This document shows, one piece after another, positions 1,003-6,389 of a DNA stretch of 6,389 nt. Under the pieces are notes generated by a model. The model ran no database searches. It was given only the letters and a program-made list of their open reading frames with translations, and was not told the DNA's origin. A program made the translations under genes and the position numbers. Source of the stretch: Chloroflexota bacterium. GTDB taxonomy: Bacteria; Chloroflexota; UBA4733. Position 1 is the first letter of the stretch, and every line of letters starts with the position of its first letter. Location: assembly GCA_025449435.1 (NCBI GenBank), contig JANWJO010000221.1, forward strand, positions 1-6,389, in the 5' to 3' direction.

Positions 1003-2604
1003 TTACGTGGTGAAGCGCTCCAGCACGTTCCGCGTGATGCGCGACACCGACGCATCGACCAGAATGGTCGCGACGTAGGTGATCGACCCCACCGAAAACA
1101 CCGCGCCACCACTGGCAGTTGTAAAGTGGACCATTTCCGAGCCGCCTTCGTCGGGATTGGTGCCTTTGGCGATGAGCTCGGTCCCGGTTGGCGACGATGC
1201 GGTGCGTTTATCGGTTTCGTGGCCCGACGCGCCGCCACTAATACGTTCGTGCAGGCTCGCCTCGCCGAAGATGTCGCCGGGCTTGAGACCGGTCCCGTCC
1301 AGCGCCCAGTGGTCGGCGGCCACCTTGAAAGGAGCGGCCGTCATGACGCCGGGGTCAGTGAACGCGACGCCCAATAGCGTGGCTTCACTTGCGACGGTGC
1401 GGTGGAAGCGGCTTTCCAGCGGCTTGCCAGCAGCGTCACGGTCCCCGGTCTTGCCCTTATAGGAGTTGACGTGCAGCGTGGCCTCATCGAGGAACTCCAC
1501 CTCGCAGTTCACACCGTTGCCACCCAGGTACATGAGCTTGCCGGCGCGTTGCTGCACCCAGGCGTAGGTGCGCTCGTACATCGCCCTAGACCAGTATTCC
1601 GGGTGGACGCTCAAGATCAAGACCTTGTAGGCGCCGAGATCCAACGTGCCGTCATGTAACTGCGCCTCGCTGTACAGATCGTATGCAAAGCCTTCGCGTT
1701 CAAGCCAGGCCAGAAAGCGCCACTCCGTTGGCGCAAGGTGGCAGGGTTGTCGCCCACGAATAGGGTCGGTCACCTGCGTTTCGCGCGGAATGTGGTTGAA
1801 CGGCTCCGGCCGGTCAAACGACAGCGGCAGGTAGTCAGCGTCGGGAAACCCCCATACGTCGTTGGTGCGGTCTGAGTTGTACCGCAGTAGGTCTTGCCGG
1901 GCATTCACCACCGGTGTCGCCGGCAGCCCCGTCGCGTTGATGTAGTTGCTGCGGCCACCAAAGTTGTTATAGGTATTCCACGTGTTGGTGGAGGCGACCA
2001 CAGCAATCTTGGCGCTCGGCTTGGCAGGCGCCACCACGAGCGGGAAGCTAAAGAACTTGCCCGACTCAGTTTCCGCGTGAAAGTAATACAAGCCTGAGCG
2101 CCGGGGTGCCGTCACGGTTTGCGTGGGATTCGGGTGCAGGTAGCCGGTGGTATTCCATCGGACGCCGCCGGTCACATAGTCGCCATCCGGCGTAATTTGC
2201 ATCACAGCGTTGGGGCCGTGTTCGTCGAACCAACCATACAGGCGCACAAATTCCTTCGTCCAGCCATACCGCCATAAGCTCAAGCGGTATGGCTCGACCG
2301 AGTGCACTTTGAACTCGGTTGTGCCGCCACTGCGTACCCACTTCGGCCACGCATAGCCCAATAGCTGGTTGGAGAGCAGACGGAACTGGTAGGGTTGGTC
2401 TTGGGGCAGTGTGAGCGTTACACGTTTTGAGCCGCAGCCGGGCATCGCCAGCGTGACCCGATACGTGCCGGCGTCCAGGTTCGCCAGCACCGCGCCGCTC
2501 GCTGTGGACTGAACGACTGCCACAATAGCGCCTTCGCGCTCAAATTCCACGGTCGCACCGCATAGCGCCACATACCGTTCGTCACTGACGTAGCCGATGA
2601 GCAC
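1003..2604 (-). CDS. N,N-dimethylformamidase large-subunit-like protein with N-terminal regulatory-like beta domain
   Basis: The protein has 533 residues from a GTG at 2604, preceded by AAAGGA at a spacing of 8 bases. Residues 1-75 resemble a carboxypeptidase regulatory-like beta sandwich (GATVEF...GAVLANLDAGTYRVTLAMPG). Residues about 76-195 form a second beta-rich section ending in RSGLYYFHAETESGKFFSFP. Residues 196-530 match the C-terminal module of the DMFase beta (large) subunit family: NTWNTYNNFGGRSNY (208-221), PLSFDRPEP, HPEYW (334-338), GGNG (361-364) and SGHETD (459-464). In true DMFase an iron held by Tyr and Glu side chains hydrolyses an amide; Tyr337 and Glu462 are candidate equivalents, but I cannot align them reliably. 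No signal peptide is seen, so it is probably cytoplasmic. It is the last gene of the minus-strand operon. No DMFase small-subunit gene is adjacent, and the protein is shorter than DMFase (about 760 residues), so the substrate is probably not dimethylformamide. The family call is firm; the reaction is unknown. Confidence 0.85.
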   Translation of the reverse strand: MLIGYVSDERYVALCGATVEFEREGAIVAVVQSTASGAVLANLDAGTYRVTLAMPGCGSKRVTLTLPQDQPYQFRLLSNQLLGYAWPKWVRSGGTTEFKVHSVEPYRLSLWRYGWTKEFVRLYGWFDEHGPNAVMQITPDGDYVTGGVRWNTTGYLHPNPTQTVTAPRRSGLYYFHAETESGKFFSFPLVVAPAKPSAKIAVVASTNTWNTYNNFGGRSNYINATGLPATPVVNARQDLLRYNSDRTNDVWGFPDADYLPLSFDRPEPFNHIPRETQVTDPIRGRQPCHLAPTEWRFLAWLEREGFAYDLYSEAQLHDGTLDLGAYKVLILSVHPEYWSRAMYERTYAWVQQRAGKLMYLGGNGVNCEVEFLDEATLHVNSYKGKTGDRDAAGKPLESRFHRTVASEATLLGVAFTDPGVMTAAPFKVAADHWALDGTGLKPGDIFGEASLHERISGGASGHETDKRTASSPTGTELIAKGTNPDEGGSEMVHFTTASGGAVFSVGSITYVATILVDASVSRITRNVLERFTT

Positions 2605-2612
2605 GAGTTGGG

Positions 2613-2618
2613 TCCTTT
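2613..2618 (-). promoter_or_regulatory. Ribosome binding site of the DMFase-like gene
   Basis: AAAGGA on the minus strand lies 8 bases before the GTG at 2604. It falls in the 39-base gap after the GntR chimera and supports the GTG start, for which no in-frame ATG alternative exists nearby. Confidence 0.6.
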
Positions 2619-2643
2619 CACCTGACAGAGCGCTGCGGGTTGC

Positions 2644-3726
2644 CTAAGCTGCTCCCTGCTGCATGGTGACACGATAGCTATCAATCAAGTGGCGTGCCAT
2701 TGCCTGGCCAGCGACTTCCGGGTTGCCGGGGCGGATACCGCCGTCAAGTAGTTGATGAAGCGACTGGTTGAGTTCCACTTGTCGCTCGGCATTGACTGGG
2801 CTCGGGTTCTGCAGCAGGTGATAGCGCAGCACTTCCATCCACGCGCTGAGCAAGCGATTGCCCGACGCCTCTGCCAGCGTGGCGTGGGACTCCATATCGA
2901 GCACTAGGTAGGAGATCGGTCCAGGAAGGGCGGCACCTTGAGCGACGCTGTCGAGCCGGCGCACAACACTGTCGAGCTTGGCGATCTGCGCGGGCTGGGC
3001 TCGTTGGGCCGCCAAACGGGCGATCTGCACTTCCAGGCTATCGCGCAGCTCCTTAACCTCTGTCAGGTTGACGTGCTCCATGTCCAGCAGGAGGCCGAGC
3101 GCTCGTTGCAACGACTGCCGGGCGGAATCGAGCACGATCGCACCGCCATGCCTGTCCACTTGGATGGCGATGACGCCGTCAGCCTCCAGATGGCGCAGCG
3201 CACCGATCACCGTGACCTTGCTGACACCAAACACTTCTTGGAGTTCGCGCTGTGAGGGCAGCCGGTCCCCCGTTTGGAGCTCGCCGCGCACGACGGCCTC
3301 GCGAATGGCCAGAGCGACTTTTTTGAAAGCTGTAAGCGGATCAAAGTGCTGGTAGTTCGGGCCGAACTTGATTCCTTTTAGTCCGAGGTCCGTGCGCGAG
3401 CGCTCCAGTTCGTCCAGCGCATCGGCATCGTATGGGTGCAACGTCATGAAGCCTGTGTACTTGGGTCTGTGCTGCCGAACAAAATTGGCGGTGTTGTCAT
3501 TCACGCTGCGCGCTGGCTCACGCCAGTCCCCGCGCGCCCTTGGTCGTTGGTCGCCGGCGATGTTGAAGCAAATCACCCGGTCAACCGGTTGCATGGCGCT
3601 CAAGTAGGCTGCAGGGCCCTGCTCCCAGTCCACCGTTCTGTCTGGCCTGGACAGCGCGTTCACGCGAGATGCCGCTGCGGCCGGTTCGGCGGCTCGTGGC
3701 GCGTGGGTGTGGACGTCGATGATCAC
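2644..3726 (-). CDS. Chimeric protein: truncated amidohydrolase fused in frame to an FCD-family GntR regulator
   Basis: The protein has 360 residues from the preferred GTG start at 3726; the frame is open up to a GTG at 3744. The GTG at 3726 gives the classic amidohydrolase opening MIIDVHTH and has AAAGGAG 6 bases upstream. Residues 1-131 match the N-terminal half of amidohydrolase family 2 (HxH metal ligands His6 and His8; LKGIKFGPNYQHFDPL at 116-131). The rest of the TIM barrel, with the later His and Asp ligands, is missing, so this half cannot be a working enzyme. From residue 132 a GntR winged helix begins (AIREAVVRGELQTGDRLPSQ, FGVSKVTVIGALRHLEADG), followed by an FCD ligand domain at about 210-355. 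The FCD metal-site residues are all present: Asp277, His281, His324, His346. The GntR part, about 229 residues, is of normal length. It probably regulates this operon if it still folds. Three possibilities remain: a natural deletion fusion, a tolerated extension on a live regulator, or an assembly join. Confidence 0.85.
   Translation of the reverse strand: MIIDVHTHAPRAAEPAAAASRVNALSRPDRTVDWEQGPAAYLSAMQPVDRVICFNIAGDQRPRARGDWREPARSVNDNTANFVRQHRPKYTGFMTLHPYDADALDELERSRTDLGLKGIKFGPNYQHFDPLTAFKKVALAIREAVVRGELQTGDRLPSQRELQEVFGVSKVTVIGALRHLEADGVIAIQVDRHGGAIVLDSARQSLQRALGLLLDMEHVNLTEVKELRDSLEVQIARLAAQRAQPAQIAKLDSVVRRLDSVAQGAALPGPISYLVLDMESHATLAEASGNRLLSAWMEVLRYHLLQNPSPVNAERQVELNQSLHQLLDGGIRPGNPEVAGQAMARHLIDSYRVTMQQGAA
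3325..3342 (-). other. Fusion junction between amidohydrolase and GntR parts
   Basis: Homology switches here from amidohydrolase (…YQHFDPL) to the first helix of a GntR winged-helix domain (TAFKKVALAIREA…). No stop, ATG, or ribosome binding site is seen at the switch, and the first Met in the GntR half falls far inside its FCD domain. A separate GntR product is therefore not evident, and the regulator seems to be made only as a fusion. An A6 run on the coding strand lies at 3319-3324, just downstream of the join. Confidence 0.65.
3334..3726 (-). pseudogene. Amidohydrolase (family 2) remnant, first ~131 residues only
   Basis: This is the 5' part of the chimera described for 2644-3726. It carries the start, the ribosome binding site and the first strands of a metal-dependent amidohydrolase barrel, but ends after FDPL at about 3334, whereas the family runs to roughly 270-300 residues. 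In related enzymes the sequence after this motif leads to the strand with the next metal-binding His. No continuation of an amidohydrolase is found in any frame of the window, so the missing half is absent rather than frameshifted. Its position just after the RraA-like gene suggests the ancestral operon had a full amidohydrolase here, possibly acting on a lactone or hydroxy acid intermediate (inference). Confidence 0.65.
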
Positions 3727-3732
3727 GGGAGG

Positions 3733-3739
3733 CTCCTTT
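3733..3739 (-). promoter_or_regulatory. Ribosome binding site that decides the chimera start
   Basis: AAAGGAG, a near-perfect Shine-Dalgarno match, sits 6 bases before the GTG at 3726. The more upstream GTG at 3744 would place this motif inside the coding region, so the start at 3726 (MIIDVHTH) is preferred. Confidence 0.75.
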
Positions 3740-3781
3740 GGCACTGGTCACTCGCGACCACGAGACCTTCCCGCGCGTCGA

Positions 3782-4450
3782 TCACAACAAGCCAAACTTC
3801 GCATACGCGTCGGTGAGCGACATGCCGCGGCGGAGGGCGTCACGCATCGTATTCTCGCCGTCTACCTTCGCCAGGGCTCGCTCGATTGCTTCGGGAATCG
3901 CGCCTTGCGGGATGACGACCAGCCCGTCGATATCCCCGACGATTAGGTCGCCCTCGCTGACTATCACGCCTCCACACGACACGGTGCCGCCATATTCCAC
4001 TACCTGTGACCGGCCGGCGGAATCCACCGGCGACATGCCCGTCGCAAACACGGGAAACCGCATATCGGTGATCCGGCGCACATCGCGTATGTAGCCGTCC
4101 ACTACCGCGCCGCGAGCGCCGCGCCCCTGGGCGGCGGTGGACAGCAGCTCACCCCAAAAACACGTGCGGGTGGACGGGCCCGTGCTCGCCACCAGCACGT
4201 CACCCGGCCGCAGCGTGTCAACGGCCTCAATTTCCAGCCGGTAGGGGTCCGGCTTAAAGCTAAACACGTCGACGGTGAGCACTGTGTGCGCGCGTCCGAC
4301 CAGGATCGGGCAATCCCATACCGGTCGCAGCCGTGCGCTCATCGCCTGGTCTCGAAAGCCCAGTTGGTCGAGCACGTCCGATAGCACAGCGCTGTACAAA
4401 CGCTGTTCCACCACTGTTATACGGTCAGCATCGGTCGATGGTTCAGGCAT
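3782..4450 (-). CDS. RraA-like protein / HMG-aldolase-type lyase
   Basis: This 222-residue protein starts at an ATG at 4450; a GGTGG 9 bases upstream is a modest ribosome binding site. It matches the RraA-like / 4-hydroxy-4-methyl-2-oxoglutarate aldolase fold across its whole length. Landmarks are LYSAVLSDVLDQLG (18-31), RPGDVLV (81-87), WGELLSTAAQGRGARGAVVDGYIRD (99-123), FPVFATG (132-138) and GDLIVGDIDGLVVIP (167-181). Arg122 and Asp123 are the conserved pair that, in characterised aldolases of this fold, bind substrate and the divalent metal; GEL at 100-102 fits the opposite side of the site. This argues for a metal-dependent lyase acting on a 2-oxo acid or hydroxy acid rather than the RNase E inhibitor RraA. 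It lies 47 bases after the enolase-superfamily gene and 55 bases before the chimera, in the same operon. The exact substrate is not known. Confidence 0.9.
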   Translation of the reverse strand: MPEPSTDADRITVVEQRLYSAVLSDVLDQLGFRDQAMSARLRPVWDCPILVGRAHTVLTVDVFSFKPDPYRLEIEAVDTLRPGDVLVASTGPSTRTCFWGELLSTAAQGRGARGAVVDGYIRDVRRITDMRFPVFATGMSPVDSAGRSQVVEYGGTVSCGGVIVSEGDLIVGDIDGLVVIPQGAIPEAIERALAKVDGENTMRDALRRGMSLTDAYAKFGLL

Positions 4451-4497: not shown

Positions 4498-5646
4498 TTA
4501 ATTCTCGTCCAAAGCGCTATCGCTCAAACGGTGTGTGCGCACGGCGTCCTCGTCCAGTTCAACGCCTAGGCCAGGACCGGTGGGCGCCTCGGCATAGCCG
4601 TACTTGACGAAGCTGGCATCGGTGATGAGTGAATGGTCGTGGTACAGCGTCCCAATCACGTCGGCGGGGTAGGCATCGGCGGTAATTTCCGGCGTCGACA
4701 CGCCGTAGTGTGCCATAGCGGCTGAGCCAATGCCCAGCTCAAGGTTGCTGCCGATGGTGGCCCCTATTCCGCATACGCCCGCGAAATGTGCCAGCTTCTT
4801 GGCTTGCAGAATGCCGCCGTGTTTACCGGGATACAGGCTCAACACGTCAGCAGCGTCCTGTTGCACCACTGCTGCCGCGTCGTTCAGGCTAAACACGCTC
4901 TCATCAGCCATGATCGGCACGTGGACCGCCCGCCGCACCTCTGCGAGCAGGCGTGGATTGCGGGCTTGTACCGGTTGCTCGGCCACCGTGAGGTCGCAGT
5001 CTTCCAGTTGCCGTAACGCCCATATAGCGTCTGGCACGGTCCAACCGGTATTGGCATCCACCGTCACCAAAACGTCTGGTCCCACGGCCACGCGCACCGC
5101 CTTCACCCGTTCGACGTCGGCATGGGGGTTGACGCCAACCTTCACTTTGACGGTGTCGAAGCCCAGCGCCACATACTCCCTGGCTACCTCGGCCGCACGA
5201 TCTGGTGTCGTTGCTGCCACGACAAACTTGGTCCGGATACGGTCGCGCACTTTGCCGCCGAGCAGTTCGTAGGCGGGTACGCCCATCAACTTACCAGCGA
5301 GGTCCCAGCACGCCATCTCGATGGCGGCTTTCGCAAACGGATTCTCTTTGGCCCGCGCATCCATCTTGCGCGCGATGCGCTCGATATTCAGGGGGCTCTC
5401 GCCTATGACCTCGGGCGCCAGATAATTCTTGATGCAGCGGATGGCGGTGACGGCGTCTTCGCCGTTCCAGCGCACGTCGACGGTCGCTTCACCCAACCCG
5501 GTCATGCCGTTACTGGTGTGGACTTTCAAGATGACGTAGTTGCTTGCCGCCCGTGTGCCGTGCGCCGTGATGATTTGGATAGCTGGCAAGCGGTGCACAC
5601 GGACGGCGATGGTCTCGATGGCGGTGATGCGCGGCGCAGACAGCAC
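4498..5646 (-). CDS. Enolase-superfamily enzyme, mandelate racemase / muconate lactonizing enzyme family
   Basis: This 382-residue protein starts at a GTG at 5646, with AAAGGAAG just upstream. It has an N-terminal capping domain (about 1-130, with LLGGKVRD at 128-135) and a C-terminal barrel with the full active site. The site comprises the KxK motif Lys167/Lys169, the metal ligands Asp197 (VDANTGW), Glu223 (EQP) and Asp248 (ADES), and a lysine on a later strand, Lys275 (YPGKHGG), plus Glu303 (SNLELG). Lysines on both sides of the site are the signature of the muconate-lactonizing subgroup, rather than the His-Asp dyad of mandelate racemase or the sugar acid dehydratases. Enzymes of this subgroup abstract an alpha proton of a carboxylate and then cycloisomerise, epimerise, racemise or dehydrate. 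No residue is missing, so it should be active. Context with an RraA-like aldolase suggests a catabolic step on a sugar-derived or dicarboxylic acid (inference). Confidence 0.93.
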   Translation of the reverse strand: MLSAPRITAIETIAVRVHRLPAIQIITAHGTRAASNYVILKVHTSNGMTGLGEATVDVRWNGEDAVTAIRCIKNYLAPEVIGESPLNIERIARKMDARAKENPFAKAAIEMACWDLAGKLMGVPAYELLGGKVRDRIRTKFVVAATTPDRAAEVAREYVALGFDTVKVKVGVNPHADVERVKAVRVAVGPDVLVTVDANTGWTVPDAIWALRQLEDCDLTVAEQPVQARNPRLLAEVRRAVHVPIMADESVFSLNDAAAVVQQDAADVLSLYPGKHGGILQAKKLAHFAGVCGIGATIGSNLELGIGSAAMAHYGVSTPEITADAYPADVIGTLYHDHSLITDASFVKYGYAEAPTGPGLGVELDEDAVRTHRLSDSALDEN

Positions 5647-5685: not shown

Positions 5686-6389
5686 CTATGCCAGGCCAGA
5701 ATCGCTCAGCCAGTCAAACAGCCGGTCGATCCAGGAATCGGTAGGCATGCCCCGCCGGCGCATGCCGAAGCCGTGTCCACCGCGTGCATAGACGTGCAAC
5801 TCGGACGACCGCCCAGCGGCGCGCCAGGCGTCGTGCAATGGCCCGACCCGTGCGGCAGCCACCTGGTCATCCGCCGCCACCGCCTGAAACAGCGGCGGCG
5901 CATCGGCGGGCACGGTCACCACGCCGAATGGTGCGCCATAAATGGCGCCAACCCAAGCCGGCCGCTCACTCGCATCTGGCACCAGTGCGGTGCCGCAAGC
6001 TAACATTGAACCGGCGGAAAAGCCCATGATGCCTGTGCGCTCTGGCTGGATGTTCCATTCAGCGGCGCGCCGGCGCACCACTTTGATGGCTTGGACACCG
6101 TCAGCGATCGCGAGCGGGCGCACTGCGTCCATCCGAGCGCGCCGGCCCTCGTCCACACCACGTGGAGAACCCCAGGCCCGGCGGAACTCGTCGTCGTCAA
6201 CCGGCGTTTGCACTATTCGATAGCGCAGCACAAAGGCGGTGATGCCCTTGGAAACGAGCCATTCAGCCACCTGCGAACCCTCGTGCTCGATGGCCAGGAA
6301 GTGGAACGCGCCACCGGGAGCCACGATGGCCGATGCACCGGTGGCCACCGAAGCCTCTGGCCGGTACACCGTGATCGTTGGGTGTGTCA
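5686..6389 (-). CDS. Alpha/beta hydrolase (esterase/lipase-like), 5' end outside the window
   Basis: The frame is open from the right edge to the TAG at 5686-5688. The GTG at 6369 is a possible start, but six further sense codons (THPTIT, then VYRP) run to the edge and give the usual first strand of this family, so the gene probably begins at or just beyond position 6389. Counting from the GTG, 227 residues are seen. The family pattern is complete: oxyanion loop APGGAFHFLA (17-26), EHEGSQVAEWLVSKGITAFVLRYR (28-51), nucleophile Ser118 in GFSAGS, acid Asp167 or Asp168 in AADD, and catalytic His199 in GGHGFG. This resembles the small cytoplasmic acetylxylan/feruloyl-esterase-like (BD-FAE type) hydrolases. 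No signal peptide is seen in the visible part. As the first visible gene of the operon, it may remove an acyl group or open a lactone of the imported substrate (inference). Confidence 0.88.
   Translation of the reverse strand, partial: THPTITVYRPEASVATGASAIVAPGGAFHFLAIEHEGSQVAEWLVSKGITAFVLRYRIVQTPVDDDEFRRAWGSPRGVDEGRRARMDAVRPLAIADGVQAIKVVRRRAAEWNIQPERTGIMGFSAGSMLACGTALVPDASERPAWVGAIYGAPFGVVTVPADAPPLFQAVAADDQVAAARVGPLHDAWRAAGRSSELHVYARGGHGFGMRRRGMPTDSWIDRLFDWLSDSGLA

Follow-up and report, generated by a model that had tools for sequence, protein, structure and literature searches.

A candidate fusion of half an amidohydrolase to a FadR-type GntR/FCD regulator, with a putative frame-restoring scar, in a Chloroflexota bacterium

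Proteins that combine an enzyme with a transcriptional regulator are a known kind. In MocR, a single chain holds a GntR winged helix together with a part derived from an enzyme, the regulator standing in front and the enzyme part, of full length, behind. The protein described here likewise unites a GntR winged helix with part of an enzyme, but the enzyme part is only half of one and it stands in front. The regulator half resembles the FadR-type GntR/FCD regulators (represented here by P0002-P0009 and by the structures 6az6, LldR 2di3 and NanR 6on4), with which it shares the winged helix, the FCD domain and an aspartate plus three histidines; these regulators have an N-terminus of their own, whereas in the fusion 131 enzyme residues replace the first 20. 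The enzyme half resembles Amidohydrolase family 2 (PF04909; P0010-P0014 and P0016), sharing residues 1-131 at 66-70% identity and the N-terminal HxH, but these enzymes also have the strands past beta4 and a later His, His and Asp, which the protein of the window lacks. By the window we mean the whole stretch of DNA analysed, 6,389 nucleotides long.

Frame-restoring pairs of indels are known as well. In Mycobacterium tuberculosis, according to the excerpt of PMC8339072 consulted, most of 69 two-indel scars have their indels less than 10 nt apart. The scar considered below is like these in that a frame is broken and then restored by nearby changes, and differs from the excerpted cases in that one of the two changes is the joining of two genes instead of an indel. 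What is new is the combination, half an amidohydrolase set ahead of an FCD regulator and joined to it through a scar, which turned up neither in the protein searches nor in the literature searched.

The fusion gene and its two halves

The fusion gene lies on the minus strand at 2644..3726 and encodes 360 residues from a GTG at 3726, as judged from the open reading frame, from the plus-strand reading, which contains stops, and from Pfam matches. The frame is open from a further GTG at 3744, giving 366 residues, and ends with the stop at 2644; residue numbers refer to this 366-residue frame throughout. The GTG at 3726 is the start that agrees with the MIIDVHTH of the relatives, and it is preceded at a distance of 6 nt by the Shine-Dalgarno sequence AAAGGAG (3733..3739, minus strand), inherited from the amidohydrolase side. 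There was no stop in the 360 codons, and each half matched its own family with strong E-values. According to a sequence-only reading of this DNA, an FCD-GntR regulator follows in frame upon half of an amidohydrolase that keeps its ribosome binding site, and the domain matches and the AAAGGAG agreed with this. No sigma-70-like promoter was found in 2500-4000 (0.3 expected), and no RNA family reached its gathering score in the window.

The amidohydrolase part (3335..3726, minus strand) comprises 130 codons plus two bases of the next and runs from beta1 to beta4 of the barrel. Pfam Amidohydro_2 matched residues 9-140 over profile positions 1-125 of 289, with 26.2 bits, just below the cut-off of 26.4. 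In the protein search this half was 66-70% identical to P0010-P0016 and 49-51% identical to P0017-P0019; these relatives are 289-299 residues long, except P0015, which has 210. The HxH (H12 and H14) is retained, and the half ends before a His, a His and an Asp that are invariant in 9 of 9 aligned relatives (H152, H187 and D241 of P0013) and would be metal ligands in this family. Thus neither a whole barrel (four strands in the model described below) nor the full set of conserved metal-type residues of the family is present. Since the later conserved residues are missing, the enzyme half is, as far as its sequence tells, a dead half barrel that cannot work as an amidohydrolase. The sequence-only reading had likewise called it unable to catalyse, on account of the later barrel strands and metal ligands.

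The regulator half contains a GntR winged helix (residues 142-195; 3160..3321, minus strand; Pfam E 1e-13, 51.2 bits against a cut-off of 27) and an FCD domain (residues 230-353; 2686..3057, minus strand; Pfam E 1.1e-17, 65.1 bits against a cut-off of 24.3, profile positions 2-123 of 125). It was 53-74% identical to the separate regulators P0002-P0009, which have 245-293 residues. D283, H287, H330 and H352 aligned with the Asp and three His of LldR 2di3, so that the metal-site residues typical of the class (Asp or Asn plus three His) are all there, as had been read from the sequence; in 2DI3, zinc is bound by three histidines and one aspartate according to the excerpt of PMC7797058. None of the NCBIfam cut-offs was reached, the best score being that for NanR (85.5 of 260 bits). 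The regulator is complete as to its winged helix and FCD domain. The description of it as complete fails for the N-terminus, where the first 20 residues (counted on the closest relative, L001) and its own start codon are missing, and its synthesis would hence depend on the start of the enzyme. Among the eight close regulators, only P0007 has a counterpart of H330 (window 2755-2757), six having Arg and one Gln at this place. Because the third metal-type histidine is thus replaced in 7 of 8, the members of this small group may differ in their use of metal.

An AlphaFold2 model based on 36 sequences had a mean pLDDT of 85 and a pTM of 0.52, so that the placing of the parts relative to each other is uncertain. 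It showed four barrel strands and three helices, the fourth strand at 124-126 (118-120 in the model), and, ten residues after this strand, the first helix of the winged helix at 137-152 (131-146 in the model). The PDB fold matches listed for the model were FadR-type and other GntR regulators.

The join and the frame scar

Comparison with L001 placed the join, to within one base, between the last enzyme base at 3335 and the first regulator base at 3334 (3334..3335, minus strand), the regulator sequence beginning at the codon for Tyr21 in L001 numbering. At this place the eight close regulators all read PDYSFQKVA, and the fusion frame reads DPLTAFKKVA. The stretch TACAGCTTTCAAAAA (3320..3334, minus strand) encodes TAFKK in the fusion frame and YSFQK in the old frame of the regulator, so that the original frame can be recovered over a short stretch between two changes. 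When these shifted codons were compared with those of L001 (TAT AGC TTC CAG AAG), 11 of 15 bases were alike and the four differences all fell at third positions, against 6 of 15 alike in the fusion frame. As a control, the remainder of the regulator was compared with L001 in the same manner at 200 positions of five codons each. Here the same shift matched 3.2 of 15 bases on average and 7 at most, the opposite shift no more than 9, and neither shift reached 11 at any of the 200 positions; in frame, the mean was 10.8, with 8 of the 200 positions at 6 or fewer, so that the low match of the fusion frame is uncommon but not exceptional. The DNA comparison of the scar involves this one relative. These figures indicate that the join was originally out of frame.

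The frame is regained in a run of six A (3319..3324, minus strand; T on the plus strand), which holds a one-base gain. The run sits 10-16 nt past the join, so that the frame is back within 16 nt, and three residues are altered by the scar (Y, S and Q to T, A and K). The sequence thus points to a join that was itself out of frame and to a frame restored when the A run grew by one base. The sequence-only reading had explained the gene by a deletion. Its account of half an enzyme joined to a regulator stands, but a simple deletion leaves the frame unexplained, one extra base in the A run being needed as well. We rejected programmed slippage as an explanation, since six A are shorter than the usual runs (eight or more in transcriptional slippage, in the part of PMC3711429 consulted) and the fusion frame is not in register with the A-AAA-AAG phase. 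No other homopolymer of at least six bases occurs in the window, and a run of this kind lends itself equally to genuine slippage and to a base error.

No repeats were found at the join, and the parent genes, as judged from L001, would have shared at most about one base there. A search of the rest of the window for a left-over C-terminal half of the enzyme or N-terminus of the regulator gave no match better than E 0.37.

Relatives, neighbourhood and searches for the same architecture

Genomes were scanned with the amidohydrolase alignment, and the best 80 of 473 loci by score were considered. The closest among them, L001, is on a 10,960-base contig of a Chloroflexota MAG (G001) and holds a complete amidohydrolase (613-1482) and a complete regulator (8426-9232) on the same strand, 7 kb apart, in the order amidohydrolase, enolase-superfamily gene, transporter, regulator, enolase-superfamily gene and start of a DMFA2-like gene. 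The transporter, on the other strand, is of the oligopeptide type, with two permeases and a family-5 binding protein. Separate amidohydrolase and GntR genes in relatives had been anticipated from the sequence, and L001 provides them. The accompanying idea that only the 3' end of the enzyme gene and the intergenic region were lost does not hold against this locus, where 7 kb and the transporter lie between the two genes; the event would therefore have removed more than an intergenic gap or have followed a rearrangement. The L001 regulator is back to back with the binding-protein gene, with 96 bases between them, a position that we take to be usual for a local regulator. Unlike it, the regulator of the window stands behind the start of the enzyme.

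In the window, the fusion gene is preceded by an RraA-like gene (3782..4450, Pfam), an enolase-superfamily (MR/MLE) gene (4498..5646), which is 61-63% identical to the gene behind the L001 regulator, and an esterase-like gene (5686..6369), whose 5' end may lie outside the window; it is followed by a DMFA2_C-like gene (1003..2604), whose relative in L001 is one gene behind the regulator. All four are on the minus strand, and past the last of them comes an ABC permease on the other strand. The order RraA then amidohydrolase also occurs in L004. The DMFA2_C-like protein, which has a carboxypeptidase-regulatory-like start, recurs near the amidohydrolase in L001, L009, L019, L024 and L080, that is, in several Chloroflexota loci and one actinobacterial one.

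In the flanks of 6 of the 80 loci, L001 with its regulator 7 kb downstream being one, such a regulator was present (profile E 1e-8); many of the 80 have short flanks, and with the same limit on flanks none of the best 80 of 473 had the tandem order amidohydrolase then regulator. In L018 and L030, from Anaerolineaceae MAGs, a GntR gene lies directly behind the amidohydrolase on the other strand (10891-11607 and 10924-11631, minus strand); it lies upstream in L024 and L054, on the same strand, and in L021, on the other strand.

The fusion itself was sought in about 5.8 billion proteins, of which 7,992 candidates were scored. The 34 hits consisted of the window's own protein, regulators, amidohydrolases and one other amidohydrolase chimera (P0015), and none of the 33 besides the window's own protein spanned the join. 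A second protein search used words from residues 98-178; its 68 candidates yielded 13 hits, and again none of the 12 others crossed the join. One protein, P0036, seemed to do so, covering 73% of the stretch, and was dismissed because it is a full-length amidohydrolase whose extension is a weak alignment. A sample of 400 genomes from the phylum was also scanned, and matches with an E-value of 1e-20 or lower occurred in 47 of them; up to five candidates per genome were scored, and L089-L117 were judged from the match table. Each match listed covered one half, except in G391, where a candidate (C198; residues 11-353, one stop) had a GntR-FCD match at E 1e-3 only and no amidohydrolase; G374 gave a like result on inspection. 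The searches at order and class level covered three genomes. No relative of the fusion was found in viral contigs. Among plasmids, 245 records matched, all below 60% identity, and among the matches listed three covered residues 49-366 at 25% identity and were annotated as ordinary FadR/GntR regulators.

These searches bear on the idea that an amidohydrolase-like sensor joined to GntR-FCD is an old, normal domain order, which we regard as scarcely credible. The sequence-only reading had asked for hits across the join, and both protein searches returned the window's own protein alone; a widespread family with the same architecture, which would have spoken for an old arrangement, did not appear in them or in the 400 genomes, where the listed matches cover one half each and that in G391 lacks the amidohydrolase. 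Among the best 80 of 473 amidohydrolase loci, moreover, 78 matched to residue 280 or beyond and the other two ran off their contig; half-length relatives could occur among the lower-scoring rest.

P0015, the other chimera, consists of 210 residues encoded on a 781-base ENA contig and has the N-terminal half of the amidohydrolase in frame with another protein. Its enzyme half is cut about 15 residues further on than that of the window, and in place of a regulator it carries the end of a protein with a xylose-isomerase-like barrel (26.0 bits, against a cut-off of 31.1). It may represent a recurrence of enzyme-half capture or a recurrent artefact.

Origin and fate of the fusion

We consider it probable that the fusion is real, be it working or decaying. 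The narrower proposal, a recent and real fusion in a single lineage, with a frame-restoring scar and a regulator that is still functional, seems to us an even call. According to it, a deletion, as we infer, or else a rearrangement in a catabolic gene cluster would have brought codon 131 of the amidohydrolase up against codon 21 in the gene of a FadR-type GntR/FCD regulator, with the frame off by one base, and the gain of one base in the A run, before or after the join, would have returned the regulator to frame, presumably under selection. The fusion protein would be made from the start codon and Shine-Dalgarno sequence of the enzyme, behind the RraA-like gene and presumably co-transcribed with its neighbours as an operon, with the regulator's original start and the sequence ahead of it lost. 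The predicted winged helix and FCD domain most likely still bind DNA and effector, and the half barrel would ride along as a passive or degraded head. If real, the gene would show a newly arisen regulator architecture, with an out-of-frame join mended by one base and a regulator relocated behind the start of an enzyme in a catabolic operon. It would also amount to a test, made by nature, of whether a regulator can carry half a TIM barrel.

We considered the possibility that the assembly wrongly connected two stretches of one genome, or of two related genomes, perhaps with a base error in the A run as well, so that two ordinary genes are hidden. The join is known from a single 6.4-kb contig, no second copy of it turned up in either protein search, and the sole homopolymer of six or more bases sits exactly where the frame is restored. 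Chimeric contigs do arise through shared k-mers or sequencing errors (PMC7299287, as excerpted), and P0015, in which this enzyme half is again part of a chimera on a short contig, is what might be expected if such artefacts recur. The parent genes, however, judged from L001, share no sequence at the join. The halves are about equally diverged from L001 (69.5% and 71.4% identity; 72.4% for the DMFA2-like and 61.4% for the enolase-superfamily gene) and alike in composition (GC3 of 0.73 and 0.72, against 0.72-0.76 in the other genes, with an even GC along the window), which also disfavours a join across species. Nor would a mis-join predict a frame restored just past it, and no other frame break was seen in the window, its five other genes aligning without one over about 4.8 kb. 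The evidence thus leans against an artefact, which we hold to be unlikely, though a rival of some weight.

A real fusion could also yield a dead product, a decaying leftover of a deletion in which the restored frame is due to chance or to an older frameshift; this we judge unlikely. In the regulator half, F286S and G197D fall at positions invariant in the eight close regulators, site 286 being Phe in 18 of 19 aligned regulators, and these replacements hint at decay. Of 80 columns that are otherwise invariant, 11 are altered in the enzyme half (the GTG start among them), more than in any of six close relatives (0-4 of 69-73). Half a barrel is, furthermore, a doubtful folding unit, and the regulator's own start is gone. 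Against this, the frame stays open throughout, and the excess of changes at invariant columns was not significant in the regulator half (p 0.39) or, compared with the most diverged of the six relatives, in the enzyme half (p 0.16), so that faster decay of the latter was not supported. In both halves the differences from L001 concentrate at third positions (0.50 and 0.52; the first two codon positions have 0.15-0.21), although much of this divergence predates the fusion. For annotation the gene carries a warning, as an open reading frame resembling a bifunctional protein can hold a dead enzyme half.

A further reading takes the N-terminal half barrel as a self-folding module that is repeatedly captured and alters the assembly or sensing of the regulator, with the frame restored under selection. 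P0015 would be a second capture of this type. Two half-barrel mutants described in the excerpt of PMC5770038 unfolded as single units, which, as far as the excerpt goes, does not favour independent halves, and we think this reading quite improbable. In the same hit list as the fusion, P0028, a protein of 469 residues, combines two GntR-FCD regulators in one chain.
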